Shown here: positions 5,629 through 64,000 of the stretch, in pieces | Numbering within the stretch: position 1 is the first letter of the stretch | Layout of the letters: every line of letters starts with the position of its first letter | Assembly: GCA_949751835.1 (NCBI GenBank) | Contig: CATKHK010000038.1 | Span: 186,001 to 250,000 of the forward strand | DNA from: Blepharisma japonicum | Lineage: Eukaryota > Ciliophora > Heterotrichea > Heterotrichida > Blepharismidae | Direction of reading: 5' to 3' | DNA length: 64,000 bases | Position numbers and translations under genes: made by a program | Notes under the pieces: generated by a model | Databases searched by the model: none | The model's input: the letters and a program-made list of their open reading frames with translations, nothing else | What the model was told of the DNA's origin: nothing

Positions 5629-8600
5629 TTATGTAGGCACAAATTTCATCATTGATCTGATTTTCTGCAGATATAATTTTTCCTTCTTAAAGAACACAAA
5701 ATACAATGCAAAATATATGAAAATCGAGCTGACAGCAAAAACTATGAATGTTCCTATTATAATTGCTATTTGATTTTCAATTATAGTTTGGGAGTATAGA
5801 TCAATCTCGCCAATAAGTTGATCATAGTTATCGCTTAGAATTACAATATAAAATACTCAGTTCAGCAACAATAAAGGGTCTTGATCTGTGTATGCAAGCA
5901 AATAGCTGTCAATTTTTACCATTTCTTGACCTGAATATGCGCCAAACTTACAATAATCGATAGGCGAATCATCTATACGCTCATAAAATATTTCCCTAAA
6001 CTTAGTAGATAATATTGGTAAATACTTCGAATTTCTTAATACTAATTTAGAATGGCCAAGTTTTGGCATAAATTCTTCAAACTCAGCTAAACTGTTCATA
6101 AATGGGTACCCATTAATGAATTTATATACTAATGGGACTCCTCAAATTTCAAACTGAGAATTCATCGTTCATATTACTAAAGAATTCTGTAAAATTTGCT
6201 CATATATTAACTCTTTCATTACTTCAGGCCTATAAGTCAAATAGTCTGTACATTTTTCATAAAGATGCGTAATGCTAATTACAGAAAACATAGTAGCGAT
6301 CATTGCATAAACTGATATTCTTCAAATATATTTTCAGTAGTTTCTGAAGTAAAATGGGTTCTTTGTAGATTTTTTATTGCTGAGCAAAACTTCAGGCTGT
6401 AAGTGAGTATTTTTAATTCTTTCTAAAAGGGATTCCTTGAGCTCAGAATAGTTATCATATACTTTTTTCCTTAAATTATTTCAAAGTTTACTTTCATATT
6501 TGACAGCAGAATAGCCAAATGGAATAATTGTGCAGGCACATAAAGCAAGAACACAAATTCCTAATAGCAGCAGAAATTGCATTTCAACCTTAAAAGCAGA
6601 CATTATTGAGCTTTGGCATTCAATAACTTCATGCAAAGAGCTGTTGCAGTGCCTAAATGCTTCTCCATAACCATTAATTATTAAGAACGATGCTTCAATC
6701 GAAATATCTTCAGATTTATTAAACTTTGCTGCTAATTCATTCCCCTAACTATTTTTTACCATCTGAATAAACCCTAAAATCATATTAAATAAATTATTTT
6801 TTTCATTGCTACCTGAATTTCAGGAATTTATACTTCTTTCATAAAATATCTGCTGTCCCGAGCAATAATTTCAATTGTCTATATTAGAAGTAACGTTCAT
6901 ATATAAGCTATTTAGATGATCAACAAACGTTAATAATAAGGTTTTGGCTTGATATAAAATAATCTGAGAGGAAGGCGCTGTATCACCTCCAAATAATCAA
7001 AGTATTTCTGCAGAGCAACCAATATTTTGCATTGCTTTTTCTATTTTACCAATAACTATAGGAAGATCCATATTTCGGATGAAATTAATGTTAGAAAATG
7101 CAAAAAATAAGACAGAAATATTTGTGCTTAAAACAGCAATGATCTATATAAATGTTACAGATATAATAAAAGAAGCATGCAAAACATTGATTGATTGGGT
7201 TGACATTAAGGCTTGCTGAAAAAAATTGTTATATCGCGGATTTTCTGATATTAGATATTTGTCTTCTTCTTCTTTTATGTTTAATAAATTGTAATTATCA
7301 TCTGTAGTATCATTAATAATTTCTGGACTTAAACTCAGATCAGGACGAGTAAAGTCCTTTTCTAATTTGCATAATTTTTTCAAACTATTCCTCTTATTTT
7401 CTTCAAACTTATATTGCTTTAGTGATAGTTTTCGATTTAAAGCAAATTCTTCTTGAAGAGCAGTGTTTTTATTTTTTCAATTTTGAATTTCTTCATAATC
7501 ATCCATTAATAAAACATAAAATACTTTCAATTTATAAAAATGAGCTCAGGAAAAAATTAATAGAGTTTCATTTTCACAATTTTGCAAGTAGTAAGGTACA
7601 GACCATTGCAAATTAAACTCTTTTTCTTCTGAAAATAACTTTTTTATATTAAATCCTGCTAAAATTTCAGAGCTTATTCTGACTGCTTTAGGAAAGTTTT
7701 TGGAATGTGCACAAATTTCTCCATTTTCAGAAATCAATGCTATTTCATTTTTTGTCTCTTTTTGTTTAAAAATCAGCATAAAAATAAAAACATGATCGAT
7801 TGAAGTTATAAATATTTTTCCAATGCATTCTATTATAAAATTTGAACGAAAATTTAAAAATAACCCTTCACTTAAGTCAACTTCTCCACTTGGGCTGAAA
7901 TGTAAAACATTATTAAGCTCTTCTCTCGTTTTTTCACGATAAAAGGAGGGAATAAAGTCCAATATATTGCTTTCTTCAGTTGCTATTAATTTTGCTATTC
8001 TTTTGGCTGTTGTGTTGGAAAAAAGGATTTGACCAAAGTTCTCTTCTTCAGCTAATATTATGAAGACACCATTAGTATCATTAAATCAGTTGAAGTTTTT
8101 TGAATATGAGCTTATAATATTGAGGTCAGATGATTTTAGTTTATTTTCAAGAAAATTAGATTTTTCTTGGTCAAAAAGAACATCTTTTGAAAACGAAGCG
8201 TATAAGCTTAAAAATTCTTTGGAATAAAAGAATTTTGCTGTTAGATCTGTATATTGATTATCGAGGAATAAGATTTTTTTATCTAATCAGTCCAGATTTT
8301 TAGTCAATCTGCTAAGAGTAGGTTTATGTGATATTATTTCGTCTCAAAACTTTAATAATTTTACGCATAACTTAAAATCTTGCTTTTTTATCATCATTAA
8401 TTGCTGAAAATAGTCTATAAACTCTGAGCTTTCACTAGGAGATGTGCATTTTATATTATTATAGCATAAATATTCTTGAAAGTTGTTTTCCAAGTTTCAT
8501 TCTAAAATTTTTTTAGATTTACATAACTTAAACTTTGCTAGAGATTCATCTCTTAAAGTAAAAAGACAGTAATTTGAGATCCATATGCCTTGAAGCTTAT

Positions 8601-9792
8601 CTCGAATCAAGATATTTTCTATAAAAAATGTTTCAAAAAGGTAAATTATTTGGCTTTTATGCTCAATATCATTTTTACACAATGACTGTCTAAAAGATTT
8701 TTCTAGCTGGTATTTAGATTTTATTCCGATCAAATCGATTGGAAAATTTGAATTTAATTTTTTTTGAAATATTCAAGTTACTTGTATAACGAAGAGAGTA
8801 GATATAGGCCACAAAAATATTGTTACTAAAATAATAAAAAGCGAGTTATCTATTCAGTTGCCTAAAATGAACCCAAAAGAAATAAAAGAAACAGTAAAAA
8901 ACTGAAGAGTTAGTATTAGATTGTAATAGTAAGAAAAATATGGTAAAAATACAATAATTTCTATAATAATAAATATTGAAATAATCATTTCAATCATTTG
9001 AAAATAAATAATGCTATTTTCATCAAATAGTACGTAAATTATTGCCGAAAAATAAGTAAAAACTATTCTATGTACATCAACTTTGGAATGAGCTTTTGCT
9101 TTTATAATCTTTTTACTCACGGAATGCCTTATTTCTCCTGAAAATTCAGTATAAAGTAAAATCATCAAAAAATTAACAACCATTGCCAAAACTATCATAA
9201 TTTGTCATACTTCATTAAGCTCAAAACTCTTGGAATGATTATTATTTTTGTATTCAGATATAAATTTTTGATTTAAAAAATTATATTTCAAAAATATGGA
9301 AGATATTACCATGGATGGAATAAATAGCATAATTACCCAAAAATTGAAAACTCACTTCAATATATCAAAGACTAATCTTGGTAAATTAAAGGAACAATAA
9401 ATAATAAAAACTAAAGCGACATAACATAAAAAGAGAGTAAAAGTAATAGCAATTGATAAGTAAAAATACTCAAGCAAAAGATCCAAATCTGAAAAAATGT
9501 TATCAAGCCTTAAGTAGCCAATAAATTCTCAAATTTTCTTAGTTTGATTTCAATTTGCAACTGAAAGACTTGGAATTCATAGTAAGCTAGCAATTTGACA
9601 GCATCAAATTATACTTTCAATTGATTTTATAACCTTTTGGTTGAATAGGGATTTTTCTTCAATTGACTTGCTATGATAAAGCTGACAATAAAGCTCGAAA
9701 ATTGAATTTATTATCGTTTTTTCTTTTTTGACCTTGCATACATCTTTGTTGCAAACAGACAATTTGCTAATTTCGTCTTCTTTAGAAAACAT
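5629..9792 (-). CDS. PAS-domain multi-membrane protein, copy 1 (TmcB/TmcC-like)
   Basis: The gene runs from ATG 9792 (MFSKEDEISKL) to TAA 5629-5631. It has 15-nt introns at 7144-7158 (GTAACATTTATATAG) and 6745-6759 (GTAAAAAATAGTTAG), giving 1,377 residues; many in-frame TGA codons are read as Trp. Domain order: a short N-terminal charged helix; about eight membrane spans up to residue ~380, containing the family signature GEIRHSVSKKIIKAKAHSK; a cytoplasmic stretch with a PAS-like domain (about 555-620, GVFIILAEEENFGQILFSN) and a second PAS-like unit (ALISENGEICAHSKNF); a span right after the first intron; an extracytoplasmic loop with a conserved NMDLPI motif; and three more spans, the last at the C-terminus. 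I translated the stretch between 6099 and 6480 by hand and found no stop. Its closest relative in the window is copy 3. Confidence 0.8.
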
Positions 9793-10447: not shown

Positions 10448-13400
10448 TTATTTTGGCATAAGTTTCATTATTGAGCTGATTTTTTTCAAACATTCTTTCT
10501 CATTTTTGAAAAATGCGAAATATAGCGCAAAATATATTGTAATCGAGCTTACAGCAAAAAACACAAAAGTTGCTACTATAGCATTAACTTGAGCCTCAAT
10601 CACGCTTTGCGAATATTGGTCAATTTCATTCGCAAGATCTACGTAACGCACATTTAAAGTTGAAGTATCAATTAACCAATCTAGCCATAAATCAGGGTGC
10701 GAATTTGAATAAGCGTAATAATAGCTTTCTATCACTAATAATTCTTCACCGGAGCTTAAACCATAGTCAAAATAATTATGATAATAATTATCTTTTTCAT
10801 AAAACATTTTTTTGAATGAATTCGATAGAATAGGCAAATATTTTGGATTTCTCAAATGAAGTTCTGACTGTTCCAACAATGATACTATTTTTTGATATTC
10901 TCTACTGCTATTCATATAAGGATATATATTTATAAATTGATCTACTAGCGGAATTCCTAAGGTTTCGAATTGAGATAAAGTTGTTCATGCCATTAATGAA
11001 TTTTGTAAAATATGTCTATTTATCATTTCTTTCATTATATCAGGCCTATATGATAAATAATCTGTGCATTTTTGGTAAAGAAAAAATATATTAGCTGTAG
11101 AAAAAGCTGTCACAGCAATAAAATAAACAGAAATTCTCCAGGCATATTTGTAATAACTTTTGAAGTTAATATTTCTATTTGAAGGCTTTCTGTTATTGAG
11201 CAGTATTTCAGGTTGGCAGTGGATATATTTAATTCTTTCTAATAAATTTTGTTTTAGCTCAGAATAATTTTCATAAGCCTTTTTCCTTAAATTATTTCAA
11301 AGCTCATTTTCATAATTAATTGTAGAATAGCAAAATGGGATCATAGCGCAAACACATAAAGCAAGAACACCAACCCCTAAAATGAGAAGTACAAATACTT
11401 CAGTTTTAAAATCAAGCATTATTGATTTTTGACAATCTATAACTTGATATAAAGAATCATTGCAGTATTTGGTTACTTCTCCAAAGTTATTTAATGCTAA
11501 AAACATAATTTCAGTTTGATAGTTTTCATTGTTATTGTATTTTTGATAAAAGTCACTACCCTATATAATTAGTTACAGATTGAATCGTTTTGGACATTAA
11601 ATCTACCAAATTTATTTTGCTTTCATCATTTGAGCTTCATAATTTTATATTATTATCAATAAAAATACTTCGACCTGAGCAGTAATTTCAATCTACTAAG
11701 CTTGAAGTAAGATTGACATAAAGCTCTTTTAATATATTCAAATGATATGGAAAATATAATCACGCAATACCTAAAGCTAATGCAGTATCATTGCCCCCAT
11801 AATGCGAAAGTGATCACATCATTCGTGCAGTTATTGATAAATGCTGCAATTTTGAATCGACATTTCCTAGAGCTATTGGAAGATCCATATTTCGTATAAA
11901 TTCAATGTTATAGAATGCATAAAATAAAACTGCAATATTTGTGCCCAATACTGATAAAATCTATATAAAATTTACTGATAAAATAAAAGCAAAGTGCAAA
12001 ATGTTTATTTTTTTAGAAGATGATGCTACCAATTTTGTAAATTTGTTATTTCGTCAATTTTCAGATTTTTCTTCTTCAAAATTTTCTATATAATTCATTT
12101 CAAATTTTCCTGGCATCTTATTAAAGTTTAGAGAATTTAGATTCATATCAGAATTAAAGGATAATTCACTTTGAAGTTCTTTTTTAAATTCCTTATCATA
12201 TCATTCTAATAAGTTCAAAGATGAATTAGTTTTCATATCTTTGCTTACTTTTATATCAAGCGTATTCTTGATTTCTTCATTTTTTGCTCTTTGAGTCTCA
12301 AGGTGATCGCTTATAAACAAAGCATAATTTATCCTTAAGTTGCGAAAATGAACAATCGAATAATACAGGCAACTTTCTGATGAAGCAATGTCCTTATTTA
12401 TGGAATACTCTTCTATGTCAGAAAATAAATTTTTTATGTTCCAGCCTACTAAATTATCAGGTTTTTTGCCAGCACTCTCTGCAAAATTTTTAGTGTGACA
12501 CAATATTTCTCCATTTTCAGATAGTAGAGCTATTTGGTGTTTTTTATGACTTTCTTTAAAAACCAATGCAAAAACAAGAATATCACCAATTGTTGTTATT
12601 GTTGCTTTTCCAGTACACTCTATTAAAGGTTCTGAAGGAAATTCCAAAAAAAAGCCTTCTTTTAAAGAAATTTCTGAATGAGAGCAAAAATGTGAGTACC
12701 AAATAGCGCACTCTTTAAGCCCTTTTCAATAATAAGAAGGAATAAAATTCATTATATTTCCTCCATTAAAGTTTAATGAATTAAGTTTCATAATATCTTT
12801 AGCTTGAGTATTTGAGAATAAAATTTGTCCAAAATTTTCTTTTTCAGCAGAAATTATTAGAATAGAATTTGTATCATTAAAATAGCTAAAAGGATTTAAG
12901 CCAGAATTCCCAATACTTATATTAAGAAATCTTAATTTATTTTCAAGAAATCTCGATTTTTCATTGTCAAAAATAATATTTCTCATAAATGAAGCATAGA
13001 GCGATAAAGATTCTCTACAATTAGAAAATTTTGCTGAAAGCTGGTGATATTTATCTGCGATAAATGCCATATTTTTATTAATTCAGATCAATCTTTTTTT
13101 TAATCTCTTATGATCGGGTCTTGATGAAGTTAATTCTTCCCAGAATTTCAATAAATTGACACATAATTTCAGATCCTTATTTTTTATGAGATGCAACCGC
13201 TGTAAATAAATAATAAATTGTTCACTTTCACTCATTAAAGAATCTTGAATAATTTTATTTGTGCAATATTCTTGAAAATCAGCTTCCAAATTCAACTTCG
13301 AAATATATTTAGTCTTACTTAACTTAATTTTCGTTAATGATTCATCTTTTAATGTATATAAACAATAATTTGCTACTCAGACTAGCTGAATTTTATCTCT

Positions 13401-14585
13401 GTCAAAGCTTCTTTCATTAAAATAAGTTTCAAAAAGATGTATTATCTGATCTTTATGCTCAAAATCGTTGGAGCATAAGGAATGCCTCAATAACTTCTCT
13501 AAGTCATATTTGGAATTTATCTGGGACAAATTTTCTGGAATATTCACATTAAATTTACTTTGCAATTTTAACATAAATTGTATAACAAATAAAGCTGACA
13601 AGGGCCCTAAAATGACCGCTATAAAAATAATAACTAGGGAATTATCCATAAAATGCCCTATAGCAAATGCAAAAGAGATTAAAGTAATAGTAAAGACCTG
13701 TAGAATTTTGAGTAAGCTATAATAATAAGAAAAATATGGTGAAAAATTCACAATTTCTAATGTCAAAATAAAAGAAGTAATCATCGTGGCTAATTGATGG
13801 TAAACCATAAAGCCTTTGCCAGTTAATACATAAAGTATTGGAAAAAAATAAGTAAAAATCATAATATGAGCATCAATTTTAGAATGAGCTTTTGCTTTCA
13901 ATACTTTGCTGCTTATTGAATGCCTAATAAAGCCAGAAAACTCTTCATTATATATAATCAAAGGAAATATAGCAATCATAATAAAAATTAAGGCTAATTG
14001 CCAGAAGGTTTTTAATTCGAAATCGTCTTGATCATTGCTGTTTTTATATATAAATATATCATGAGATAGTAAATTATTTTTCAGAAAAACAGAAAATAAA
14101 GTAAGTGAAGGTACTAAAAAGGCAATTGCCCATATATCAAAAACTAATTTAAAAAGAGTAAGGACTGATTTTGGGATACTTCGCGAATAATAATTCAGAA
14201 AAATCATAGCAGTAATACATAGAAAAATTAAAAATATAATAACAATAGTCCAACAAAGGTATTCCCTAATAATTTGAATTTCTGAGCAAATATTGTCAAA
14301 TCTTAAGTACCCTATAATTTCTCACAATGTCTTATTTTTATTCCAATTGGATATTGGCAGATTTGGTATTCACAATAAACTCATTATTTGAAAGCATCAG
14401 ATAATTGCTCTAAATGTTTCTTTCACTTTTTGGCTTAAAATTGATAGCTCATCAATATTTTTTGTATGATAAAGTTGATAGAAAAACTCGAAAATTGACT
14501 TTTTTAGTCTTGCTTCTGCATTATTCATTCATAGCCTTTTGCTTAGTTCTGTACATTCACCAATTTCAGCTTCAGGGACTCACAT
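10448..14585 (-). CDS. PAS-domain multi-membrane protein, copy 2
   Basis: The gene runs from ATG 14585 (MWVPEAEIGECTELSKRLW) to TAA 10448-10450. It has a 15-nt intron at 11961-11975 and a 16-nt intron at 11561-11576 (GTAACTAATTATATAG), giving 1,368 residues. The N-terminal part holds the usual spans with SGFIRHSISSKVLKAKAHSK between them. The PAS-like core is at about 12720-12900 on the DNA (SILIISAEKENFGQILFSN), and the second unit reads ALLSENGEILCHTKNFAE. The protein ends in MKLMPK. The N-terminus, the ANEIDQYSQSVIEAQVNAI segment before the last span and the 16-nt second intron all group it with copy 4 and the deleted copy, not with its neighbour copy 1. The frame is open throughout once TGA is Trp and both introns are removed. 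Confidence 0.8.
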
Positions 14586-15273: not shown

Positions 15274-18200
15274 TTATGGCGGTAGAATTTTAATCATTGA
15301 TTTTATTCTCTGCAGATACAACTTTTCCTTCTTAAAGAACACAAAATACAATGAAAAATAAATAAGAATAGAGCATAAAGTAAAAACTATAAATGTTCCT
15401 ACTATAATTCCCAATTGATTTTCGATGACACTTTGAGAATATTGATCAATCTCATCAATAAGTTCATCATAGCTATTGCTTAGCATTACAATATATCATA
15501 TTCAAGTCAATAGTTCCAAAGCTTTCTCATCTGAATGCGCGAATAAATAGCTATCAAGTTTTACTATTTCTTGAGTTGAGTAAGCACCATACTTGAAGTA
15601 ATCATCAGTAGAATTTGTATGCTCATAAAATATTGTCTGAAAGTTAGTAGATAATATTGGTAAATATTTTGAGTTTCTTAAAACTAATTTAGAGTGGCCA
15701 AGTTTTGGCAATATTTCTTGATATGCAGTTATACTAGTTTTAAAAGGGTATTCGTTCTGAAATCTGTATGCTAATGTAATTCATCAAATTCCTCAAAGTT
15801 CGAACTGAGAATTCATTGTTCATATTACTAAAGAATTCTGTAAAATTTGTTCGTATATTAGCTCTTTCATTATTTCAGGTCTATAAGTTAAATATTCGGT
15901 ACATTTTTCATAAAGATAAGTAATGCTAATTACAGAAAAAAGTATAGCGATCAATGCATACACAGAAATTCTTCAAATGAATTTTCAGTAGTTCTTGAAA
16001 TAAAATGGTCTTCTTGTAGGATTTTTGTCGTTGAGTAGAATTTCAGGCTGCAAGTGGGTATTTTTAATTCTTTCTAAAAGTGATTGCTTAAGATCGGAAT
16101 ACCTATCATATACTTTTTTTCTTAAATTATTTCAAAGATTGCTTTCATATTTGACAGCAGAATAGCCAAATGGAATCATTGCGCATGCATATAAAGCAAA
16201 AACGCAAATTCCTAATAATAGCAGAAGCTGCATTTCAGCTTTAAACTCAGACATAATCAAGCTTTGACATTCAATAACTTCATGCAGAGACTCATTGCAA
16301 TGCCTAAATGCTTCTCCATAACCATTTATTACTAGAAACGAAGCTTCATTTCTAATATCTACTGAATTATTAAATTTTAGCAATAAATCATTTCCCTAAA
16401 TATTTTTTACAAGCTGATTGAATGCTAAAATCATATCAAATAAGTTGACCATTTTATTAAAATTTGAGTTCCATTGATATATACTTTCGTCATAAAAAAT
16501 CTGTTGCCCTGAGCAATAATCCCACTTTTCTATATTAGAAGTAACGTCTGAGTAAACGATTTTTAGACGAGCTAGAAAAACCTGCATAAAACTTGTGGCT
16601 TGATATAAAAACATTTTAGATAAGTCATCAGTATTGCTTCCGAATATTCAGAGTATTTGTGCTGAAGCAGCAATATTTTGCATTCCTTTTTCTATTTTTC
16701 CAATAACTATAGGAAGATCCATATTTCGTATAAAATTAATGTTGGAAATTGCAAAAAATAAGACTGAAGCATTTGTGCCTAAAACAGCAATAATCTATAT
16801 GAAAATTACTGATATAATAAATGCAGCATGCAAAATATTGATTGATTTAGATGACATTAAGGCTTGCTGAAATATATTTTTTAATCGTGGTTTTTCCGAT
16901 ATTTGATATTTGTCTTCATCTTTATTTTCTAGTAAGTTGCAATCCACATCTGTGGTGTTATTAATAATAGTTGGACTTAAATTTGTCTCAGAATTAACAC
17001 AATCTTCTTCTAAATCGTAAAATTTTTTCCTTATAAATATATTATTTTCTTCTATCTTAGGAAGCTTTAACGATAACTGCTTAATTAGAGCAAAATTTTC
17101 TTTTTGAATAGAAGAGCTATTAATTTTTCATTTTTGAATTTCTTCATAGTTATTGATTAATAAAACATAAAATATTTTCAATTTATAAAAATGAGCATAG
17201 GAAAAAATTAATATTGTTTCAGTTTCACAATTTTCTAAATAGTAAGGGACAGACCATTGCAGATTAAACTCTTTTTCTTCTGAAAATAACTTTTTTATAT
17301 TAAATCCTGCTAAATTCTCAGAGTTTATTCTAACAGCTCTTGGAAAATTTTGGGAATGCCCGCAAATTTCTCCATTTTCAGAAATTAATGCTACTTCATT
17401 TTTTGTCTCTTTTTGTTTAAAAATCAGCATAAAAATAAAAAAATTATCAATTGAAGTTATAAATCCTTTCCCAACGCAATCTATTATAAAATTTGTAGGA
17501 AGATTTAAAAATAATCCTTCGCTTAAGTCAACTTCTCCACTTGAGCTGAAATGCAAAATATTATAAAGCTCTTCTTTTATAACTTCACAGTAGTAAGAGG
17601 GAATAAAATCCAAAATATTACACCCTTCAATAGTTATTAGAGATTTTGTAATGTTTTTGGCTACAGAGTTTGAGAATAGAACTCTACCAAAGCTATCCTC
17701 TTCAGCGGATATTATAAAGATACCATTAGTGTCATTGAAACAGCTGAAATTTTTTGCATAAGAGCCTAAAATATTGAGGTCAATTGATTTTAATTTATTT
17801 TCAAGGAAATTAGACTTTTCTGAGTCAAAAAGGATGTCTTTTGAAAATGAAGCATAAAGGTCTAAAAATTCTTTGGAATAAAAAGATTTTGTTGTCAATT
17901 CAGTATAATGATTATCAAGAAAAGTTATTCTTTTATCTACTCAGTCAAGGCTTTTGGCAAGCCTTTTCAGATCAGGCTTGTATGATGTTATTTCTTCTCA
18001 GAATCTCAATAATTTTACGCATAGCTTAAAGTCTTTCTTTTTAATCATAATTAATTGCTGAAAATAGTCTATATATTGCGAGCTTTCACTAAGAGAAAAA
18101 TTTTTGATATTTTTATTGCATAAGTATTCCTGAAAATTGGTTTCTAGGTTCAATTCTGAAATCTTTTTAGATTTACATAACTTCAATTTGGCCAGATTTT

Positions 18201-19446
18201 CATCTTTTAAAGTAAATAGGCAATAGTTTGCAACCCAAATGGACTGAAGCTTATCTCTAATTAAGATATTTTCTATAAAAAACTTTTCGAACAGGTAAAT
18301 TATTTGAGCTTTATGCTCATTTTCATTTATACACATTGATTGTCTCAAAGATTTTTCTAATTGATATTTAGATTTTATTCCTATCAAACCTGCAGGAATT
18401 TTTCAATTTAAATTTTTTTGATATTTTCAAGAAATCTGTATAGCATATATAATTGATGGAGGTAACACGAAAATTGTAAATAAAATAATAAAAAGCGAAT
18501 TATCTATTCAGTGTCCTAAAACAAATCCAAAAGAAATAAAACCAATAGTAAAAAATTGAAGTATTAGCATTAAATTGCAATAATAAGAAAAATATGGTAA
18601 AAATATAATAATTTCTATAGTAATAAATATCGCAATAATCATTTCGATCAATTGAAAATAAATCATATTATTTTCATTGAATAATACATAAATTATTGCT
18701 AAAAAGTACATAAAAATTGCTTTATGCATTTCAATCTTAGAGTGGGCTCTTGCTTTTATATTTTTTTGACTTACAGAGTGCCTAATTTCTCCTGAAAATT
18801 CAGTATAAAATAAGATCATGAAAAAATTAATAATCATTGAGAAAATTATCAAAATTTGCCAAGTTAAGCTTATCTCAAATTTGGCTGAATCATTATTATT
18901 CTTGTACTCAGATATAAATTTTTGATCCAAAAAATTATATTTCAAAAATATGGAATATATTACAATAGATGGGATAAATATAATAATTACCCATAAATCG
19001 AAAGCTCATTTAAATATATCAAAAGTCAATCTTGGTAAATTTAAGCCGCGATAAGTAATAAAAACTAAAACGATAATACCTAAAAATAGTGTTAAAGTAA
19101 TTGAAATTGACAAGTAAAGGAAATCAACTGAGAGGTCCATTTCTGAGCAAATATTGTCGAGCCTTGAATAACCAATAATTTCTCAAATTTTTATATTCTC
19201 ATCTCAATTTGTGATTGGAAGATTAGGAATTCATAGTAAGCTTGCAATTTGGCAGCACCAAATCCCGCTTTTAATTAATTCTACAACCTTTTGGCTAAGA
19301 AAGGATTTATCTTCATTTAGCTTTGCATGATAAAGCTGATAATAAAACTCGAAAATTGAATTTAATATTGATTTTTCTTTTTTAACCTTGCTCAAGTCTT
19401 TGCTGAAAATTGAATACTCTCTAATTTCATCTTCTTTAGAAAGCAT
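15274..19446 (-). CDS. PAS-domain multi-membrane protein, copy 3
   Basis: The gene runs from ATG 19446 (MLSKEDEIREYSIFSKDL) to TAA 15274-15276, with 15-nt introns at 16795-16809 (GTAATTTTCATATAG) and 16396-16410 (GTAAAAAATATTTAG). It codes for 1,380 residues, the longest copy here. It shares long near-identical stretches with copy 1: the PAS flank (GEVDLSEGLFLNL), the second PAS-like unit (ALISENGEICGHSQNFPRAV) and EEKEFNLQWSVPYYL after it. The PAS-like core covers about 17590-17760 on the DNA (GIFIISAEEDSFGRVLFSN). The first membrane block is complete, with GEIRHSVSQKNIKARAHSK. No LOV-type flavin cysteine motif is present. The promoter side faces the deleted copy at 20310-20936. Confidence 0.8.
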
Positions 19447-20309: not shown

Positions 20310-20936
20310 TTATTTCGGCTTTATCTTTAACATTGAATTAATTTTTTGCAATCACTTTTTACCTCTACTGAAAAAGACAAAGTATAAAGCAAAATATATT
20401 GCAATTGACCTTATAGCAAAAAACAACGAAAGCTGATGCTATAGCATTTAACTGAACTTCAATCACACTTTGTGAATACTTATCAATTTCATTACCAAGA
20501 TCACTATAATGCAAATTTATATATAAAATGTTAACTATTGAATGATAATCTAACAAAACCATAGCTTCAATAAATAAAAATATTATAAAAGTAATAGATA
20601 TCGACAAATAAGGCATATATCTATAATTCCGAATTCTGAGCAAGCATTATCAAGTCTTGAGTAACCAATAATTTCTCATATACTTTATTTTCACCTCAAT
20701 TGGAGATTGAGAGGTTTGGAACTTATAATAAACTCATTGTTTGGAGGCATCAAATTGTTACTATGAAAATTACCTTGGCTTTTTGGCTCAGTATTGATTT
20801 TTCATTATTTGTTTTTGTGATAAAGTTGAGAGTAAAACTCGAAAATTGACTTTTTTAACTTTTTTTCTAATTTAATCTTCCACAATCCTTTATTGAACTC
20901 TGAAAAACTACCAATTTCAAGTTCTGGAATATCCAT
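20310..20936 (-). pseudogene. PAS/multi-membrane gene copy with a large internal deletion
   Basis: The fragment keeps both ends of the family and lacks the middle. From ATG 20936 it reads MDIPELEIGSFSEFNKGLWK and KSIFEFYSQLYHKNK, matching the N-termini of copies 2 and 4, then hits TAA at 20805-20807. Remains of the first spans follow in other frames. The sequence then jumps to the tail: SDLGNEIDKYSQSVIEVQLNAI, a disrupted last span, and KINSMLKIKPK with TAA at 20310-20312. It is 627 bp against about 4,140 bp, so roughly 3.5 kb, including every PAS-coding base, is gone. It sits between copies 3 and 4 in the same orientation. Confidence 0.85.
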
Positions 20937-28540: not shown

Positions 28541-28595
28541 TATAATAAAATTTACCCTTTTTCCATACTAAAAATACCGTGCTATTTCATAAATA

Positions 28596-45676: not shown

Positions 45677-47077
45677 ATGTCTTTTGAACAAGTTGGAGTT
45701 GACCAAGAAAAGTATGACAGAAATGCTGTGTGAAAGATTGGCTTGACCATCGCAATCGGTAATTTTATTGGAGGCATGAACCTTGGCGTATACAATTCAG
45801 CAGCCGAGAGCATTGCCGCGACCTTGCATTGGGGTGACGAAAAGGAGATCCTGATCCCAACGATGAATGCTATGATGCATCTTGGGGCAACTTTTGGATC
45901 TCTTTGTGCTGGTCCATTAGCGAATAAAAAAGGCCGTCGTCAAGCATTATTGATATTAGATATAATTACAATAATTGCTTCAGCCTTTTTCTTTATTCCA
46001 TTTACTCCGACATTTGCCATTGGCAGATTTTTCTCAGGGTTTGTAACTGGAGGCTTTGGTGTGCTGTCTCCTTTGTATATGTTTGAATTTGCCCCTATTT
46101 CAATTAGTGGGAAAATTGGCTCTTTGATACAATTAAAAGTAACGCTCGGTATTTTACTTATGTATATTTTGGCATTGCCATTGCCAACCGAAAATTATAA
46201 TAGCCATAGCATTAACTATTGGTGGATGTTTATGTTTTCCTTCCAATCGGTTTTTGCACTATTTCAATTTGTTTTATTAGTATGGAAATTTAAGCATGAC
46301 TCACCTGTGTGGCTTCTTGAAAAAGATAGAAGAAAAGAGGCGAAAGAAAGCCTTGCTCAGTTCTATGATGACGAAAGTGCAGGATATGTACTTGAAAGAT
46401 TAGAAAAAAATATAGAAAAAGCTAAAGAAGAAGCTGGAGAAAGCAGCTTTGCAGATTTGCTTTGCTGCAGAAAAGGGCACTCTAAGAGCGTTAGAATTGG
46501 AATTGCCCTGAATTTAATACGCCAATGGTGCGGAATTAACGCCATTATTGGCTACTCTACAGCTATTTTTAGCACTTTCGGAGACAAGTTCATTGCAAGA
46601 GTTTTTACTGTTGTGGTTGGGGTTGTTAATATGGTTGCTACGATCATATTGTTTCCAGCCATTAATAGATTTGGGAGAAAATCTATGCTTTTAGTGGGGA
46701 GCTTAGGAATGGCTGTTTGTTTAATTATTGTTGGAATTTTTTCAGGTCCTGTAGATGCTTCTGCAGGTCCTCCACTTGCTTTTATTTTAATCTTCATCCT
46801 TTTCTTTGGAGGTTCTACTGGATCGCTTGTTTACATTGTGTGTGGAGAAATTTTAAGCCATAAAGCTATGAGTATCTGCATTGGAACTAACTGGGGCTCA
46901 GCTACAGCTGTTGTCTTTTTATTCCCGATTATGGTTAATGCATTTTCTATGACGTATACGTTTTTCTTCTACGCAGGAATTTGCATATTAAGTCTACCTT
47001 ATTTGATGTTCGACTTGATCGAGACGAAAGGAAAAACTAAAGCTGACTTGAAGATGATGCTTTCGAAGCTCAGATAA
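45677..47077 (+). CDS. Sugar transporter, major facilitator superfamily, copy 2
   Basis: 466 residues, ATG 45677 (MSFEQVGVDQEKYDRNAV) to TAA. One TGA (in NAVWKIGLT) is Trp; copy 1 has TGG there. It keeps the GRR loop (GPLANKKGRRQAL), NLIRQWCGINAIIGYS in span 7, NRFGRKSML and ETKGK, but differs most from the other two in the second half: span 10 reads GGSTGSLVYIVCGEILSHK where the others have SAGPLxWIVCGE, and span 7 has RQW in place of QQW. Gln and Gly-Pro residues in these spans help form the sugar site in characterised relatives, so its substrate or rate may differ. Spacer and promoter sequences show it arose by tandem duplication. Confidence 0.87.
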
Positions 47078-48511
47078 AGTCTTAATTCTTTAACTCGATT
47101 AAAAATTTAAGTTTTTAAGCCTGATATTCACCTAAGTCACTATTACTATATTCTTAAGAATCAAAATGTAAATTTGATTTTCTCGGAAAGGGTGTAAATT
47201 CTAAGCAAAACCAAAATTTTTGAAATAAGAGGCTCATTGTTCCCTAGGCATTCGTTTTTATATTTTTGTCATTCATCAATTACTCCATTTATGTCGCCAA
47301 CATAAGTGAATAAATTTACAAATTTCTTGAATTTGTATAGAATTATAAAATGATTGATATATAAGTCTTAAAAGAAGAATAAATATTCTTGTAAATTTAT
47401 TCATCATCAAAAAGCCTTACACATAAATTATAATAGTGTTTTTAATTAAATCGGCATTGCTGACTAAATTTTTCAATTAAATAATAAAATATATAAATTA
47501 AGCAGTGCCCACTGCTATAAACAAAATTTAGGATAAAATGAAAATTTTCTACAACTCTTAAAAATTTATAAAAATAAAAGGATATTTAAGCATTCTATTG
47601 CAAATTGGATACTCTTTACTTGCGCAAATGACTATTTAAATAAAAAACCCAAAATCATTCTTTAAGAAAGTTTCACAATAAGCTTAAGAAATAAAAAAGC
47701 ATAAATCCCTTTTAGTTTTTCAAGGAAACTTTTTATTGTTTGTAAATCCAAAAAAAATACATATAGTCATATAAGAATCTAAAGGAACCTAAAGGAGTAT
47801 GCGACTGCACAAACTCAAGATATAGCCTTTTAACTCAAGCAGAACCAAAAAGTTAAATATTCATATAAAGGTGCTGGAAGTATAATAAAGAGTTTTTGTA
47901 TTTTGATATATTAAGGTAATTATTGAAATTTAGATCAAGAGCGTTGCAATGAAATCTAACTTATTAAAAGCCTAATTTAGACCATGCTTGCATTATCATG
48001 CTAGCTTATAAAATAATTGAAAAAATGGAATTTTATAAAGCATATAATGAAAATTCAATATAAATATTTAGCTTAATTCCAGAATTTTATTAATTCTCAT
48101 ATTTTTATATTTTAGGGGATATTCTTGAGAAAATAAAATGAAATTAAGGCTTATAGCATTAGACTTTAGTATTTCTTATTCTGTCTGAGATAATAATAAA
48201 ATATAGGATAACTTTAATTATAAAGTAAAATCTTCCATTACTGAGCCTGTGTGTTTTTTGAAATTATTACTAATTTTTAATATTTATATGCTTCAAATTC
48301 TATTATATTTTTATTTATCATCCACAATTTTTTCTTAACTCTTTTTACTTAAGCTTAGATATATGATCTCCCATAGTGTCTTTATAAAGTCATTAACCTC
48401 AATGTGATAAATTTCCTACAAATTATCTTTGATTTTCTAAATCCACAACTTTTCGTTAGTCACCCTTTTGCTCACACTTCAGAGGATAAATTTGTTCACC
48501 TGTTATAATTA
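47078..48511. other. Spacer between transporters 2 and 3
   Basis: 1.4 kb of AT-rich sequence with diverged blocks shared with 44080-45676. No gene is supported. The last 100 bases before transporter 3 keep only a short resemblance to the promoter blocks of copies 1 and 2 (ATAATTAATGTCTT around the start). Confidence 0.5.
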
Positions 48512-49912
48512 ATGTCTTCTCCTTTGTTAGAAGCAGATCAAGAAAAATTTGACAATAAGACTGTCTGAAAAATCGGAATAACCGTCGCTATGGGCTCTTT
48601 CATTTCAGGTATGAACCTCGGAGTCTATAATTCAGCACCAGATAACATTTCTGCTACCTTGGATTGGGGTAGCAACAAAGATTACTTTATTCCAACGATG
48701 AATGCTATGATGCATTTCGGCGCTACGTTTGGAGCTCTCAGTGCAGGCCCATTGGCAACTAAAAAAGGTCGTCGTCAAGCTATATTGATTTTGGATATAA
48801 TTACAATAATTGCTTCAGCCTTCTTTTTGATTCCATTCACCCCAACTTTTGCTATAGGCAGATTTCTCTCTGGCTTTATTGCAGGAGGCTTCTGTGTGCT
48901 ATCTCCTTTATTTATCTTTGAATTCGCCCCAGTCTCCATTAGTGGAAGAATTGGTTCTCTGATACAGCTTAACATTACGCTCGGGATTGTCTTTATGTAC
49001 GCATTAGCATTGCCATTACCAACAGGAGGCTATAAAAGTAATGACTTGAATTACTGGTGGATGTTTATGTTTGCTTTACAATCAGTCTTTGCCTTATTCC
49101 AGCTCTTTTTAATGCTGATGAAGTTTAAGTATGACACTCCTGTGTGGCTTTTAGAACAAAATAGAAGAGAAGAGGCAGAAAGAAGCCTAAGACAATACTA
49201 CGACGACCAAAGCGCAGCATCTGCACTGGTAAGATTAGAAAAAAGCATACAAAAATCAAAAGAAGAAGCAGGCGAAAGCAGCTATGCTGATTTATTATGC
49301 TGCAGAAAAGGGCATTCTAAAAGCTTTAGAATTGGGATAATGCTGAATTTTATACAGCAATGGTGTGGAATTAATGCAATTTTAGGGTATTCGACAAGCA
49401 TTTTTAGTGAATTTGGAAGCGAGTTTGTCGCTAGAGTTTTTACTGTGCTGATTGGGCTTGTAAATATGGGTGCTACGCTGATTTTGTTCCCAGCTGTTAA
49501 TAAATACGGAAGAAAACCTATGCTTTGGATTGGAAGCTTAGGAATGGCTGCATGCTTAATTTTTGATGGGATTTTTTCAGGACCAGTTGATGCCACAGTA
49601 GGTCCTCCACTGGCTTTTATTTTAATTTATATCGTTTTCTTTGAAACTTCTGCTGGGCCGCTGTGCTGGATTGTGTGTGGAGAAATTTTAGCACCTAAAG
49701 CTATGAGTATTTGCCTTGGAATGAACTGGGCTTCAGCTACAGCTGTGGTCTTCTTATTCCCGATTATGGTTAATGCATTTTCAATGACTTATACGTTTTT
49801 CTTTTATGCAGGAATTTGCTTAATAAGTGTTCCTTATTTGTGGTTTGACTTGATTGAGACTAAAGGAAGAGATAAGCAGGATTTGAAAACAGAGTTTTCT
49901 AAGCTTAGATAA
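48512..49912 (+). CDS. Sugar transporter, major facilitator superfamily, copy 3
   Basis: 466 residues, ATG 48512 (MSSPLLEADQEKFDNKTV) to TAA. One TGA (TVWKIGITV) is Trp. All family marks are present: GPLATKKGRRQAI, GRFLSGFIAGG, NFIQQWCGINAILGYS, NKYGRKPML, SAGPLCWIVCGEI and ETKGRDKQ at the end. It is closer to copy 1 than to copy 2 in spans 7 and 10. The N-terminal cytoplasmic dozen residues differ most among the three, which is where regulation or sorting signals could differ. It is last of the triplet; the PAS/membrane array starts 930 bases downstream on the same strand. Confidence 0.88.
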
Positions 49913-50844: not shown

Positions 50845-53800
50845 ATGTTAGCAACTGGCATCCATGAGCCCTTTTCGTCAAGAAATTACAGAAAAAGGAA
50901 TGCTCTGAAAAATTCAATATTCGAGATATACCGTAAATTATACCATCAGAAAGCCTTAGAAGAAAAATCAATTTTCAAGCTAAAAGCTACACAAACGATA
51001 TTAGGCATACTTTGGAGTTTTCAAATAATTAGTTGCTTATCAATTCCAAATCTCTCAATCAAACATTGAGAAGAGCATGCAATAATGTGAAAAATCATTG
51101 GGTATTTTAGACTTGATAATATATGCTCAGAATTTGGGGCAATTAATGAATGCTTGTATATATCACTTTCAATTACTTTTTTACTTGGTGCAAGCATTAT
51201 CTGTCTTGCAATCAGCATTTATTTTTCTATAAGTAATTCAAGATTATATAGCATATATCGATGAGCTTTCAATTTTTGAATATACATTGTTTTAATACCT
51301 TCTGTGGCTCTATATACCATTTTTTTGAAATATAGCATTTGGCCTCAAAAATATATATCAGAATATAAAAATAATAATCACATAGAAGATTTTAAAATAA
51401 ATGCTGGATTGCAATTTGCAATAATTTTAGCATTAGTTATAGATTTTCCTCTGCTTTATTTTTATACGCAATTTTCAAGTGAAATCAGACATTCTAAAAG
51501 CAGTAAAACAATAAAAGCAAAGGCTCATTCAAAAATTGACAGTCATATAGCGATTTTTACTTATTTTTCGCCAATGTTTTATGCTCTGCTTTGTGAAAAT
51601 TATATTATTTATTTGCAATTATTTTTTATGATTTTTTCAATAATTTTAGTGATAGAAGCTGAGATATATTTACCATATTTTTCTCTTTATGGCAATTTAA
51701 TACAAATTTTTCAGCTTTTCACAGTTGCCTTAACTTCATTTGGATTTGTTTTAGGATATTTAATGGATAATTGGCTAGTTATTATTTTTATCGTAATTTT
51801 TTTGGGACCATTATCAGCCCTTTTTGTGTTGCAATTTACTATAAAACTTCAAATAAGCATAAATGCAGAGTTTTCTAAAAATACAAAAGAAATAAGTTCT
51901 AAGTACGATCTCGAGAAAAGACTAAGATATCAATTGTGCTTAAATGATACCGATCATAAAAAAGAGATAATCCGTATTTTTGAGAAATTTTTTATAAAAA
52001 ATAGTTCTCAAAGAGATAAGCTTCAAATAATTTGAGTCGCAAACTACTGCTTATTTACTCTCAAAGATGAGCACTTAGCAAAAGTTAAATTAAGCAAAAC
52101 CAAAGCAATAAAAAGTTGAAACTTAGAAGCTGAATTTCAAGAATACTTATGCAATAAAAATATCAATGAATCTCCATCCAATGAAAGCTTAAAATTTTTA
52201 AATTATTTTCAACAATTAAATAGGATAAAAAAGAAAGATTCAAAGTTATGCGTGTATTTATTGAAGTTTTGAGAAGATTTAACTTCATCTAAGCCTAATC
52301 TTAAAAGATTGATAAATAGACTGGAATGAATCGACAAAAACATTTCATTCCTTGGCGATCAATATAAGCAGCTAACTTTGGAATTTTTAGATTCTCGAGA
52401 GTGCTTGGCACTTTATGCTTCATATACAAGAGATATTATTTATGATTATGAAAAATCAAATTTACTAGAAATTAAATTAAAAGGATTGAATAGCCAATAC
52501 CTTACAAACACTAATTTAAAAAGCATCAGCTTTTTGAATGATTTTCGTGGTATTTTAATAATATCTGCTGAGTCCAAAAGCTTTGGTTCTATTTTATTTT
52601 CAAATCCAAAAGCTGCTGAAATTATGAAAACTTCTATTGGTAACTTAGAAGAGAGCAATATTATGAATTTTATTCATCATTATTACTGACATAGTATAAA
52701 AGAAGAGATTCAAAGGATTATTCATTATGGCTCGAATTCGGAAATTGATTTGAGTAAAGGATTCTTTTTGAATACTCCTCAAAAATATTTAATAGAGTGT
52801 ACAGGAAAAGCAATAATCACTTCGATTGATAATAATCTTGCTTTAATATTAAACTTTGAACTAAAAAAAGCCAATTATGAAACAGCACTTTTAACAGAAG
52901 CAGGAGAAATTGCGTGCTGCTCAGAAAATTTTGACAAATTTTCTGGAAAATATAATGAAAATTTGGTTGGCTACAACATTAAGGATTTATTTTCTGAAGC
53001 AGAAATTTATAAATCGGCTTTGATTTTCTATTTAGAGAGCAAAGAAACAATTTTGGTGATGTCTTATATATATATTTCCAAATTAAAGGTTTTTTATGCT
53101 ATGCTCATAAGTCACCATGAGGAAATTCAAAAATGGAAAAATAAAAATTATGAATATAATAACGAAGAAAGAGAAATAAATGATAAATATTTATTAAGCC
53201 CAGATTGCTACAATAAAGGATTCTATAAAACCTGAAATTTATTAAATAAAAAATACATTAATTCAGAAAATGAATTAATTCCACAAAATCCTTCAGAACC
53301 TTCAGAAACCTTTGAGAAAAATTCTTTAAGCAAGTCATCAGATGCAAAATCTCAAATTCCAAGCCAAAAAAAGTTTTTCGCAATGCTAGCAACTTCTTCT
53401 AGGTCAATCAATATTTTGCATTTTGCCTTTATTTTATCAGTAATTCCTATACAGGTTATAGCTGTTTTAACCACAAATATTATTGTTCTCTTTTATGCTT
53501 TTTCATATATCGATTTTATAAAAAATATGGATTTTCCTATGGCTCTAGCTAAAGCAGAATCTAGGTTACAAATTGCTTCTTATAATGCACAGCTACTATG
53601 AGAAATCACTTCTTTTGAAGCTCCAGCTTGGTATCAGGATTTAATAATTGCATGAGATGAACTACCAGGATGTATAGATGCTTTAAGAGATATCTATATG
53701 TATATTGCTAGTAATTTACCAAAATGAAACTATTGTTCAAGTAAAACAATTTTGACTGATAAGCACATAAGTGTATGAGACTCAGGCAATATAAAAAAAG

Positions 53801-54963
53801 CAAGTTTATTGGATTTGCTCTCACAATCTACTCAGCTTGTAATTATCATGTAGGGATATAGCATTATCAGTAAATATAATATCTCTGATTACACTTATGA
53901 GGTTAGGTTTTTGAAGATGAATGGCTATGGGTATGGATTTCAATATATTAATCGCTCATTATACGAAGTAATGGATTGTCAAAGGCTACTAATGCATGAT
54001 TTTAAGTCAGAAGTGTTTATTCTACTTATATTGGGGATAGGAGTTCTTGGTTTATGTTTTTGTGCGATGATTCCATTTTGTTATTCTGTTATTAAAATTG
54101 AAAATGATTTTTGGTATAATTTGAGAAAAAAAGCATTTCAGAATTATTCAGAAATGAAACAGACACTTTTAGAAAGGCTCAAAAGCGTTCATGATAATTC
54201 TGAGATTCATTCCAGCAATCGAAACCCGTCCAAGAAAATATTCAACTTCAAGAATTATTGAAAATATATATGAAGAATTTGTATATATTTTATTGTTGTT
54301 GCAGCATTTTCTTTAATTAATATCACATATCTCTATGAAAATTGCATAAATTATTTAGCCTATAGACCAGAGGTACTTCGAGAAATCATTCGTACAAAGA
54401 TTTTTTTAAATACTCTTGCAATCTCAGGATCAGATATACAAGATAATATTGCAGGCGTCCCTTTGAATTATTTAGTTGATCTGCATACTTATGCAAATAG
54501 CTCAAAGATTTTCCAAGACTCCATGATAGCGCTTAGAGATTCGAGATTAATATTAAGAAATCCCAAATATTCGCCAATTTTATCAAGTAATTTCAAAAAA
54601 TTGTATTATGAAAATGATAGCCAGCTACATACGCATTATTTAGACTATGGCGCATATGCGGATGAGACAGAATTAATAAATGGTGGCTACGTTATTGCAA
54701 ATTTAAATATAACTAATGATGACTGAAGAAAATGATACTACAACTTGACACTTTTTAGAAATAATTATGATAAATATGCTGATGATGTAGATAATTATTC
54801 TCAAAGCGTTATTGATGACCAAGTAAAGATTATTGTTGAAGCATTTTCTGTTTTTGTGCTAGCCTCTATTATGATATATTTTATACTTTTTTTCATATTT
54901 TTCAAGAAAGAAAAGAAATATTTGCAAAAAATCAATGCGATGATGAATATTATGCCAGTGTAG
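50845..54963 (+). CDS. PAS-domain multi-membrane protein, copy 5
   Basis: ATG 50845 (MLATGIHEPFSSRNYRKRN) to TAG 54961-54963, with 15-nt introns at 53440-53454 (GTAATTCCTATACAG) and 53839-53853 (GTAATTATCATGTAG); 1,362 residues. Intron 1 has no stop and keeps phase, so it would read through if unspliced; its position identifies it. The first membrane block contains SEIRHSKSSKTIKAKAHSK and a long FTYFSPMFYAL span. The PAS-like core reads GILIISAESKSFGSILFSN and the second unit ALLTEAGEIACCSENFDKF. The tail has RNPKYSPILSSNFKKLYYE, shared with copies 6 and 7, where the minus-array copies have a related but distinct form. It is first of the plus-strand array. Confidence 0.8.
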
Positions 54964-55916: not shown

Positions 55917-55945
55917 AATCCCTTTCTGAGCAGCAAAAAGGGATT
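55917..55945. repeat. 9-bp hairpin 220 bases before copy 6
   Basis: AATCCCTTT at 55917-55925 and AAAGGGATT at 55937-55945 are perfect complements around an 11-base loop CTGAGCAGCAA. Confidence 0.5.
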
Positions 55946-56166
55946 ATGAGAGCTTTAATTTTGGGGTGATCTTTAGCCTTAATCACTTATAAATAAGCAA
56001 TTTATAATTAGATTAATTCATTATGTTTTTTGTATTTAATAAGTTTACTTCATTAAACTAATATGCTGATTTTATTTTATATAAAAAAGGAATAAAGATC
56101 CAAATACATAATTTTGCTTTAAAGTTATAATTAAAAAAAAATTTACTGTTATTTATTTCTTCCAAA

Positions 56167-61140: not shown

Positions 61141-64000
61141 ATGTTTGAACTTAAAGTCGACATATATGAAACCTTTTCTTCGAGACGGATAATTGAAGGA
61201 AATACGCTAAAAAATTCAATATTCGAGATTTACCGTCAATTATACCATCGAAAAAAATTAGAAGAAAAAGCATTTTTCAAGTCTAAGGTTACAGAAGCAA
61301 TATGCGGAATATTTTTGTGCTTCCAAACGTTGAGTCTACTATGAACTCCAAATCTCTCAATAACTAACTGAGGAGAAAATATGATAATATGAGAAATTAT
61401 TGGGTATTTTAGGCTTGATAATTTATGTTCTGAATTTGGAATTATTAATTGATGTTTGTATTCATCAATTGCGATTACTTTTATGTTTAGTGTTGGTTTT
61501 GTATTTTTAGCAATAATTATTTACTTCTCATTAGGTTTTTCAAAATTATTTGATATATTTAGGTCAGTTTTCAATTTTTGGCTCATTATTATTTTAATCC
61601 CTTCTATGACCTTATGCTCAGTTATTTTGAAATATAGTATTTGGCCTCAAAAATATGCTTTAGAATATAAACATGGCAATAATTTAGAAGACTTTGAAAT
61701 AAATGTTTTATTACAGCTTTTTATAATTTTAGCAATAGTAATAAACTTTCCTTTGCTATATTTTTATGCACAATTTTCAAATGAAATTAGACATTCTGAA
61801 AGCTCAAAAACTATAAGTGCCAAAGCTCATTCAAAAATTGGCAGCCATATAGCATTATTTACTTATTTTTTACCAATACTTTATGCTCTTCTTAATGAAA
61901 ATTATATGATCTATTTTCAATTGCTTGAGATGGCTACTTCAGCATATATAGTGATAGAGTCTGAAACACTTTTACCTTACTTTTCTCATTTTTGCAACTT
62001 AATACAAATTCTCAAATTTTTTACAGTTGTTTTAACTTCATTTGGATTTATTTTGGGGCATTTAATGGACAATTCATTGCTTATTAATTTTTTGGTTATT
62101 ATTTTGTGACCAATATCAGCTTATTTTGTGATGCAAATTACTATAAAGCAATACACTCAAATAGATTCAATAGCTTCAAAAGATATGAAAGATATAAAAT
62201 CTAAATATGAGCTAGAAAAAAGACTAAGGCACTGCATGTGCTTAAATAGTGTCGAGCATAAAAATGAGATAATCCATGCTTTTGAAAAATTTTTTAAAAA
62301 AAACAGTTCCCAAAGAGATAAGCTTCAAATTATTTGAATAGCAAATTACTGCTTATTCAAACTCAAAGACGAGTCTTTAGCTAAAGTCAAATTAAGCAAA
62401 ACTAAAAAAGTATCAAATTGAAACTTAGAAGCTAATTTTCAAGAATATCTATGTAATAAAAATGTCAACGAAGTATCATCAAATGAAAGTTTGCAATTTA
62501 TCAATTATTTCCAACAATTAAGTCTGATAAAAAAGAAAGATTCAAAATTATGTGCTTCCTTATTAGAATTTTGAGAAGAAATAATCTCATCTAGACCAGA
62601 TCTTAAAAGATTGATAAATAGGCTTGAATATATTGATAAAACCATTTCATATCTTAATAGTCAATATAGACAGCTAGTTGCTAATTTTTCTGATTCTCAA
62701 GAAGGTTTAATTCTCTATAATTCATATGCGAAGGATGTTATATATGATTATGTCAAATCAAATTTTTTAGAAATTAAGTTAAAGGGACTGGAAGATTTAA
62801 ATACCCCAAATATTGATTTAAAAAAATTTAGCTATATGAATGATTCTCATGGCATTTTGATAATATCAGCTGAGCAAGATAATTATGGACGAATATTATT
62901 TTCAAATCCAAGAGCAGCGGAAATTATGAAGACTTCTATAAGCAACTTAGAAGAGAGCAATATAATGGAATTTATTCATTACTATTACTGCGAAAGCATT
63001 AAAAAAGAAGTTCAATGACTTATAAATTATGGCTCGAATTCTGAAATTGATTTAGGAAAGAATTTCTTTTTGGGTATTCCTGGAAAAGATTTGATAGAGT
63101 ATGCAGGAAAAGCGATAATTACTTCGATTGACAATAATCTTGTTGTTATATTAAACTTCGAATTGAAACAATTAAAGCATCAAATAGCGCTTTTGACAGA
63201 AACTGGAGAGATTTTGTGCTATTCAGAACATTTTTCTGAATTTGCTGGGAAGTACAATGAAAATTTGATAGGCTGCAATATTAAGGATTTATTTTCTGGA
63301 GTAGAGGTGCATGATTCAACATTAACTTTTCGCTTAGAAAATAAAGAAACAATTTTAGTCATGTCTTATACACAAGTTTGTAAATTAAAGGTCTTTTATG
63401 TTATGCTCATAAATGATAATGAAGAAATTCAAAGAAGAAAAAATAAAAATAGCAAAAATGATGATGAAGAAGGCGAAACAATAAATAATCATCGCCTAAA
63501 TCAAAGCGAATACAATGAGAAATCTTATCAGATCTGAGAAACTTTAGATGAAAATATTATAAATTCAGAAGTAGAACTAGTCAATCGAAATTCAAATTCA
63601 TATGAACCTTCTTCAGAAACCCTTGAAAAAACATCTTCAAGCAAATCTTCAAGTTCAAAATCTATAATTCCTAGCCAAAAAAAGGTTTTTAGAGTTCTGG
63701 CCACTTCCTCTCGGTCAATAAATATTTTGCATCTTTTCTTCATTTTATCAGTAAACCCTATATAGATTTTAGCTGTTTTAAGCACAAATGTTGTTGTTCT
63801 CATTTATGCTTTTTCATATATCAATTTTATAAAAAATATGGATTTTCCTATGGCTATGGCTCAAGCAGAATCTAGATTGCAGATTGCTGCTTATAACTCA
63901 CAATTACTCTGAGAATTGGTATTTTTAAACGACTCCAATTGGTATCAAGATTTAGTATATGCCTGAAAGGGAATGCCAGAATATATAGATGATGTAAGAG
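61141..64000 (+). CDS. PAS-domain multi-membrane protein, copy 7 (cut by window end)
   Basis: ATG 61141 (MFELKVDIYETFSSRR); the 3' end lies beyond the window. A 15-nt intron (GTAAACCCTATATAG) at 63751-63765 is in the conserved first position; the second intron would come just past the edge. The visible ~950 residues hold the first membrane block (NEIRHSESSKTISAKAHSK), the PAS-like core (GILIISAEQDNYGRILFSN), the second unit (ALLTETGEILCYSEHFSEF), a serine-rich linker (LEKTSSSKSSSSKSI) longer in Ser than in copies 5 and 6, and the first span of the second block with NMDFPMAMAQAESRLQ. No stop interrupts it apart from the intron. Confidence 0.8.

Follow-up and report, generated by a model that had tools for sequence, protein, structure and literature searches.

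The window analysed here, a 64,000-nucleotide (nt) stretch of contig CATKHK010000038.1 (positions 186,001 to 250,000), carries two tandem arrays of a gene family encoding predicted multi-span membrane proteins. Four paralogues lie on the minus strand (5629-25643) and three on the plus strand (50845 to past 64000), with both arrays transcribed outward, away from one another, and ~25 kb of unrelated genes separating them. An initial annotation had described opposed arrays of four minus-strand and at least three plus-strand copies around ~25 kb of unrelated genes, and this arrangement held up, with the frames open as described when TGA is read as tryptophan. We propose, with about even confidence, that both arrays are tandem clusters of genes for a membrane sensor of the TmcB family, from a Blepharisma-like heterotrich ciliate.

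The minus-strand copies comprise M1 (21503-25643, 1369 amino acids (aa)) and M3 (10448-14585, 1368 aa), referred to as type A, and M2 (15274-19446, 1380 aa) and M4 (5629-9792, 1377 aa), referred to as type B. The start of M4 was placed at the ATG that aligns with M2; a further in-frame ATG is found at 9864. On the plus strand are P1 (50845-54963, 1362 aa), P2 (56167-60288, 1363 aa) and P3 (61141-64000), which leaves the window end after 948 aa, so the six complete copies measure 1362-1380 aa when spliced. DNA repeats gave a copy spacing of 4.8-6.2 kb in the minus array and 5.0-5.3 kb in the plus array (20 of 36 repeat families), and the GC content of the array coding sequence is 27-29%, compared to 33% in the stretch 27490-50000.

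With TGA read as tryptophan (translation table 4) and introns of 15 or 16 nt removed, all seven copies are free of stops, with TAA and TAG absent from the frame; under the standard code and ciliate code 6 the frames fall apart. When TGA codons were compared with the aligned positions of the other copies, 465 of the 661 pairings of residues had TGA or TGG opposite (358 + 107). The 13 introns occupy two fixed positions, both phase 0, the first in all seven copies and the second in all six complete ones: M1 23030-23016 and 22631-22616, M2 16809-16795 and 16410-16396, M3 11975-11961 and 11576-11561, M4 7158-7144 and 6759-6745, P1 53440-53454 and 53839-53853, P2 58762-58776 and 59161-59175, and P3 63751-63765. 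Eleven are 15 nt long and two, the second introns of M1 and M3, are 16 nt. Twelve end in TAG; the first intron of P1 ends in CAG and contains no stop, so it could be kept or spliced with the frame intact both ways. In Blepharisma stoltei, UGA is described as coding for tryptophan, most introns as being 15 or 16 bp long and the AT content as 66% (PMC9942806). The code and intron sizes of the window agree with this species, the one heterotrich compared, and point to a Blepharisma-like heterotrich ciliate as the probable source.

The Pfam family TPR_TmcB (PF25474) matched all seven copies above its cut-off of 27 bits, with scores of 31 (M1), 37.8 (M2), 34.8 (M3), 33.4 (M4), 42.8 (P1), 38.9 (P2) and 44.2 bits (P3). 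In P1 the match covers aa 437-541 (52153-52467, plus strand; E-value 6e-11). No other Pfam model exceeded its cut-off across the exons of the seven copies. The TmcB name comes from the Dictyostelium 'tiny macrocysts' genes, and TmcB-type proteins are numerous in ciliates. A relation to TmcB had been suggested in the initial annotation, and judged by this profile search the window copies belong to the known, little-studied TmcB family. What they share with TmcB/TmcC-type proteins is the TPR_TmcB region; the likeness rests on the 125-position PF25474 model and not on the order or nature of the other parts. Among the titles listed by a literature search on TmcB, none was recognisable as a functional study of TPR_TmcB or as a Dictyostelium or ciliate TmcB paper, and the available portion of PMC13096750 contains no mention of TmcB or macrocyst.

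Downstream of the TPR region in P1, Pfam searches with sequence slices, a predicted model and Foldseek delineate two PAS-like domains, PAS-A (aa ~565-675) and PAS-B (~676-760; together 52537-53124, plus strand). With whole exons as queries, PAS models matched five of the seven copies at E ≤ 1, all under cut-off (best PAS_9, 21.1 bits against 27), and no PAS match at E ≤ 1 was found in M2 and M4. With PAS-only slices, every copy had at least one match to a Pfam model of the PAS fold at E ≤ 0.1, the strongest at 1.4e-5. In NCBIfam, the first part of P1 gave a sub-threshold PAS match (E 0.059) and its last exon gave none. An AlphaFold model of P1 aa 1-775 contains two PAS-like runs of strands and helices at aa 570-755, and eight of 740 Foldseek matches in the PDB reached E ≤ 1e-3, all of them HIF-2a/HIF-1a/NPAS1-ARNT entries (bHLH-PAS chains), which we take to hold two PAS domains each. 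The best match was a HIF-2a/ARNT chain (E 8.5e-5, probability 1.00), followed, among the best 50 of the 740, by CLOCK-BMAL1, DosP, PpsR and FixL. The PAS-like units that had been proposed are thus recovered as a PAS fold in a predicted structure, in a model of low confidence. By these matches the copies resemble tandem-PAS sensors such as HIF/ARNT, CLOCK-BMAL1, DosP and FixL in having two consecutive PAS-like domains. They differ from such sensors in that no DNA-binding, kinase or phosphodiesterase model scored above cut-off, and in that the PAS pair is set between two membrane parts and has no invariant His or Cys. An hhalign comparison found no relation between PAS-A and PAS-B, which is weak evidence with at most seven sequences per profile.

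The PAS pair is the sole recognised sensor fold in these proteins, which favours a second and more doubtful possibility, in which the pair senses a cytosolic state (redox, oxygen or a metabolite) and the membrane parts mainly serve as anchors. Proteins of this kind would perhaps reside in the membrane of the contractile vacuole, pigment granules or alveoli, with large loops that are structural or lumenal. Heme-PAS and LOV domains depend on characteristic His or Cys residues, and the absence of both from the invariant PAS columns of the seven copies means that neither a heme-His nor a LOV-type Cys is evident as a conserved residue, arguing against such an internal sensor. This point is not strong because one PAS-A Cys is retained in six of the seven copies.

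A Kyte-Doolittle hydropathy scan with the same threshold for all copies found eight N-terminal segments in four of the seven (M2, M3, M4 and P2), seven in P1 and P3, and five in M1, and four C-terminal segments in each of the six complete copies. It also flagged stretches of the PAS region in six of the seven copies, which were discounted as spans. A plan of about 12 spans, arranged 8 + 4 with TPR_TmcB and two PAS-like domains between the membrane parts, is well supported and matches the initial description of about eight N-terminal spans and a second membrane part with large outer loops. In P1, the N-terminal membrane part of ~8 spans lies at 50995-51834 (plus strand; seven segments by hydropathy, helices in the low-confidence model). 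Hydropathy places its outer loop 1 at aa ~881-1046 (53500-54012, with intron 2 inside) and outer loop 2 at aa ~1156-1317 (54340-54825). Both loops, predicted at ~165 aa each, are assigned to the outside because the span count is even and because of a charge bias. Among the six complete copies the outer loops have 10-17 K+R against 15-22 D+E per ~165 aa, compared to 10-13 K+R against 4-7 D+E per 64 aa of the inner loop. We infer that the N-terminus, TPR region and PAS domains are cytosolic. The same charge bias would suit the lumen of an organelle as well as the cell surface, as an internal sensor would have it. Loop 1 also carries a sequon in all six complete copies, and Cys residues at loop positions 79 and 155 in six of six and at 145 in five of six.

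The presence of some twelve spans raised another explanation, a PAS/TPR-gated channel or transporter in which conduction is through the eight-span part, under the control of the second membrane part. Some polar residues in or beside the predicted N-terminal spans are invariant (for example Q258 and E271 in P1) and would fit such a function, as would a sub-threshold ABC_membrane match in the last exon of P2 (14.4 bits against 28). We consider a channel or transporter quite unlikely, as no such model scored above cut-off in the exons of the seven copies and the N-membrane profile had no PDB sequence match at E ≤ 10. The ABC_membrane match was taken as chance, together with the sub-threshold Pfam matches to Orf78, NCBP3, Kazal_CFAI and DUF2148.

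The predicted model of the C-terminal membrane part (predicted local distance difference test score (pLDDT) 60.8, predicted template modelling score (pTM) 0.58) is almost entirely helical and includes helices 55-83 residues long that cross the predicted membrane segments and extend further. The best fold match to this model had an E-value of 0.027 and a probability of 0.16. In its working plan only, a span, a helical outer domain and a second span, with long helices continuing inward in the model, this part resembles bacterial transmembrane chemoreceptors and sensor kinases (methyl-accepting chemotaxis proteins, TorS and NIT-type sensors). The fold matches to bacterial sensors were insignificant (TorS E 1.2, NasR E 4.6), and with neither a significant match nor a known signalling domain found, the window copies are not members of that group.

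Pairwise comparison by the Nei-Gojobori method gave ratios of nonsynonymous to synonymous substitution (dN/dS) of 0.21-0.34 in all 21 pairs. Neutral simulations, started from M2 only with two base compositions, three transition biases and six replicates each, had mean ratios of 0.65-1.03 and a lowest single value of 0.59; their synonymous divergence (dS) of 0.26-0.35, compared to at least 0.64 observed, makes this control shallower than the real pairs. The dN/dS check proposed in the initial annotation thus gave values below the simulated neutral means, with no neutrality seen, and purifying selection on the copies is clear. In the three closest full pairs (M2-M4, M1-M3 and P1-P2), which also supplied the domain values, the whole-protein ratio is 0.26-0.28. 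Outer loop 1 stands at 0.21-0.23 and outer loop 2 at 0.20; TPR is at 0.14-0.25, PAS-A at 0.27-0.31, the inner loop at 0.19-0.40, spans 1-8 at 0.27-0.38 and the N-terminal 50 aa at 0.22-0.43. Constraint is weakest in the variable cytosolic linker (0.42-0.54). Pairs with P3, which contributes only 63 loop-1 residues, gave loop-1 values of 0.48 (bootstrap 0.21-1.12) and 0.14. A value of 3.12 for transmembrane spans 9-12 (P1-P3) was set aside because it rests on a short P3 stretch with a dS of 0.06, as was a PAS-B value of 0.05 (M1-M3) with a saturated dS of 5.06. Positive selection was not found in 50-codon windows of the seven pairs listed, where the proportion of synonymous differences exceeded that of nonsynonymous differences with one tie. 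Across all pairs dS is 0.64-1.66, and because it reaches 1.3-1.7 between the three lineages described below, site-level tests are low-powered.

Several observations weigh against the proposed reading of the copies as membrane sensors. The outer loops are not fast-evolving, at 0.20-0.23 compared to 0.26-0.28 for the whole protein in the three closest pairs. This finding, together with the linker as the least constrained part, gives no support to the earlier suggestion of selection for diversity in the family or to a reading of the outer loops as rapidly changing ligand faces. It also favours an internal sensor; on the other side, two large outer domains that are clearly constrained suggest more than anchoring. 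Sequons and loop Cys residues are weak signs of sidedness because five of six copies also have a sequon in the inner loop, and all seven have three Cys in the cytosolic TPR part. For the outer domains no solved fold was identified (177 matches to the C-part model at E ≤ 10, none at ≤ 1e-3), and in that model two introns were translated through, adding 10 residues, of which five fall within span 9. The two span-loop-span units are not detectably related by hhalign, with the weak power of profiles of at most seven sequences, so an internal duplication was rejected as their origin on this comparison. PAS stays below every Pfam cut-off even with slices (best PAS_9, 25.7 bits against 27), and the N-part model is weak (mean pLDDT 42, pTM 0.26). 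Its tandem-PAS matches superpose poorly overall (template modelling (TM) score by target 0.22-0.29, root-mean-square deviation (rmsd) 18-24); single PAS chains superpose better, with TM-scores up to 0.61 and rmsd from 3.8, values printed without the matched region. Finally, the PAS, TPR, N-membrane and C-part profiles have no PDB sequence match at E ≤ 0.05.

Amino acid identity is 71% for M2-M4, 68% for P1-P2, 63% for M1-M3 and 64% for P3 with P1 or P2, and 44-49% in all remaining pairs. In an unrooted tree the pairs M1-M3 and M2-M4 each had support 1.00, as did the split between minus and plus copies; the branching order inside the plus group is weak (0.54). Copies in the minus array therefore alternate A-B-A-B, M1 pairing with M3 and M2 with M4. 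Type A, type B and the plus group are roughly equidistant (44-49% identity), so three old lineages each seem, from these comparisons, to have expanded.

Two decayed copies on the minus strand, absent from the initial annotation like the A-B-A-B alternation, show birth-and-death of the family. One (20313-20936), found by tblastn and three-frame reading, corresponds to ~aa 1-134 and 1289-1368 of M3, with both ends retained, the middle gone and the frame broken; its best scores are with the type A copies M1 and M3. It sits between M1 and M2, which are spaced further apart (6.2 kb). The other (635-880) is a C-terminal remnant of ~80 aa (tblastn E 3.9e-8 with M3; three-frame reading), recovered by four of the seven query copies. 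It lies beyond M4, with a different gene (1382-4693, coiled-coil-like, no Pfam match) in between. The preserved reading frames claimed at the outset are thus true of seven copies, which stay open under purifying selection, and not of the two decayed ones. Two decayed among nine copies, and domain values of dN/dS that all stay under 0.6 in the three closest full pairs, could also be produced by passive birth-and-death of tandem duplicates that provide dosage or redundancy without new specificity. This explanation is unlikely, as the copies are old (44-71% identity, dS 0.64-1.66) with all seven open under constraint, and pure redundancy would hardly keep seven old copies open so long. In our preferred account, tandem duplication followed by divergence, with some copies lost, would have left a small set of related sensors, and the arrays have the look of an ordinary expansion of a putative receptor, one that selection has maintained.

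An upstream block was noted ~90-210 nt before P1, P2 and P3 (50639-50728, 56006-56042 and 60959-61049), with a likeness of 70% between P1 and P3 (91 nt) and 89% between P1 and P2 (38 nt); a weak AT-rich match is also found upstream of M1. The block is perhaps a shared promoter, a reading weakened because the likeness is clear in P1-P3 alone and common descent would account for it. Between the arrays lie genes for an arginyl-tRNA synthetase-like protein (28593-30077, N-terminal domain matched), a Ras/Rab-type GTPase, an IQ+DUF4378 protein, a CFAP65-like cilia protein (36916-41400) and three sugar transporters; some frames in this region matched nothing. The synthetase-like frame is broken by a stop at 29238-29240, where a tiny intron is possible. 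The sugar-transporter genes (42676-49912, plus strand, Sugar_tr in three of three) are in tandem and form a second local expansion.

Searches for relatives confirmed none among 114 pattern stretches in viral contigs and none among 79 in prokaryote genome contigs. The first exon of M1 matched no plasmid, and no PDB sequence at E ≤ 1. Profiles of the PAS and N-membrane regions matched no PDB sequence at E ≤ 10, and those of the TPR region and C part each gave one chance-level match (E 0.066 and 0.29).

The receptor-like architecture originally proposed is supported, and we infer from it a possible series of sensing and relay steps. The last four spans would form two units, each a span, a ~165-aa helical outer domain and a span, and a cue would be perceived by the outer loops and/or the PAS pocket. 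The long helices of the spans and the flexible linker would then carry the change to the PAS pair, and this pair would alter what the TPR surface binds and so hand the signal to TPR partner proteins. No enzymatic output domain was found by Pfam in the exons of the seven copies. To our knowledge, a receptor plan in which two helical outer domains connect to a PAS/TPR relay is not known from other eukaryotes. That such proteins act at the cell surface as receptors for prey cues or for signals between ciliate cells, for example the Blepharisma gamones, is highly improbable, and nothing ties the window genes to gamones. Putative gamone 1 receptors in Blepharisma are discussed in PMC10892320, where an antibody study of such a receptor is cited. 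No GPCR (G-protein-coupled receptor) model matched in the seven copies by Pfam; a survey of ciliate GPCRs lists 123 in Stentor coeruleus (PMC9960496).

An expanded family of membrane proteins in a ciliate is unsurprising in itself. With its readable domains and clear constraint, such a TmcB-family cluster provides concrete ciliate genes for studying heterotrich sensing.

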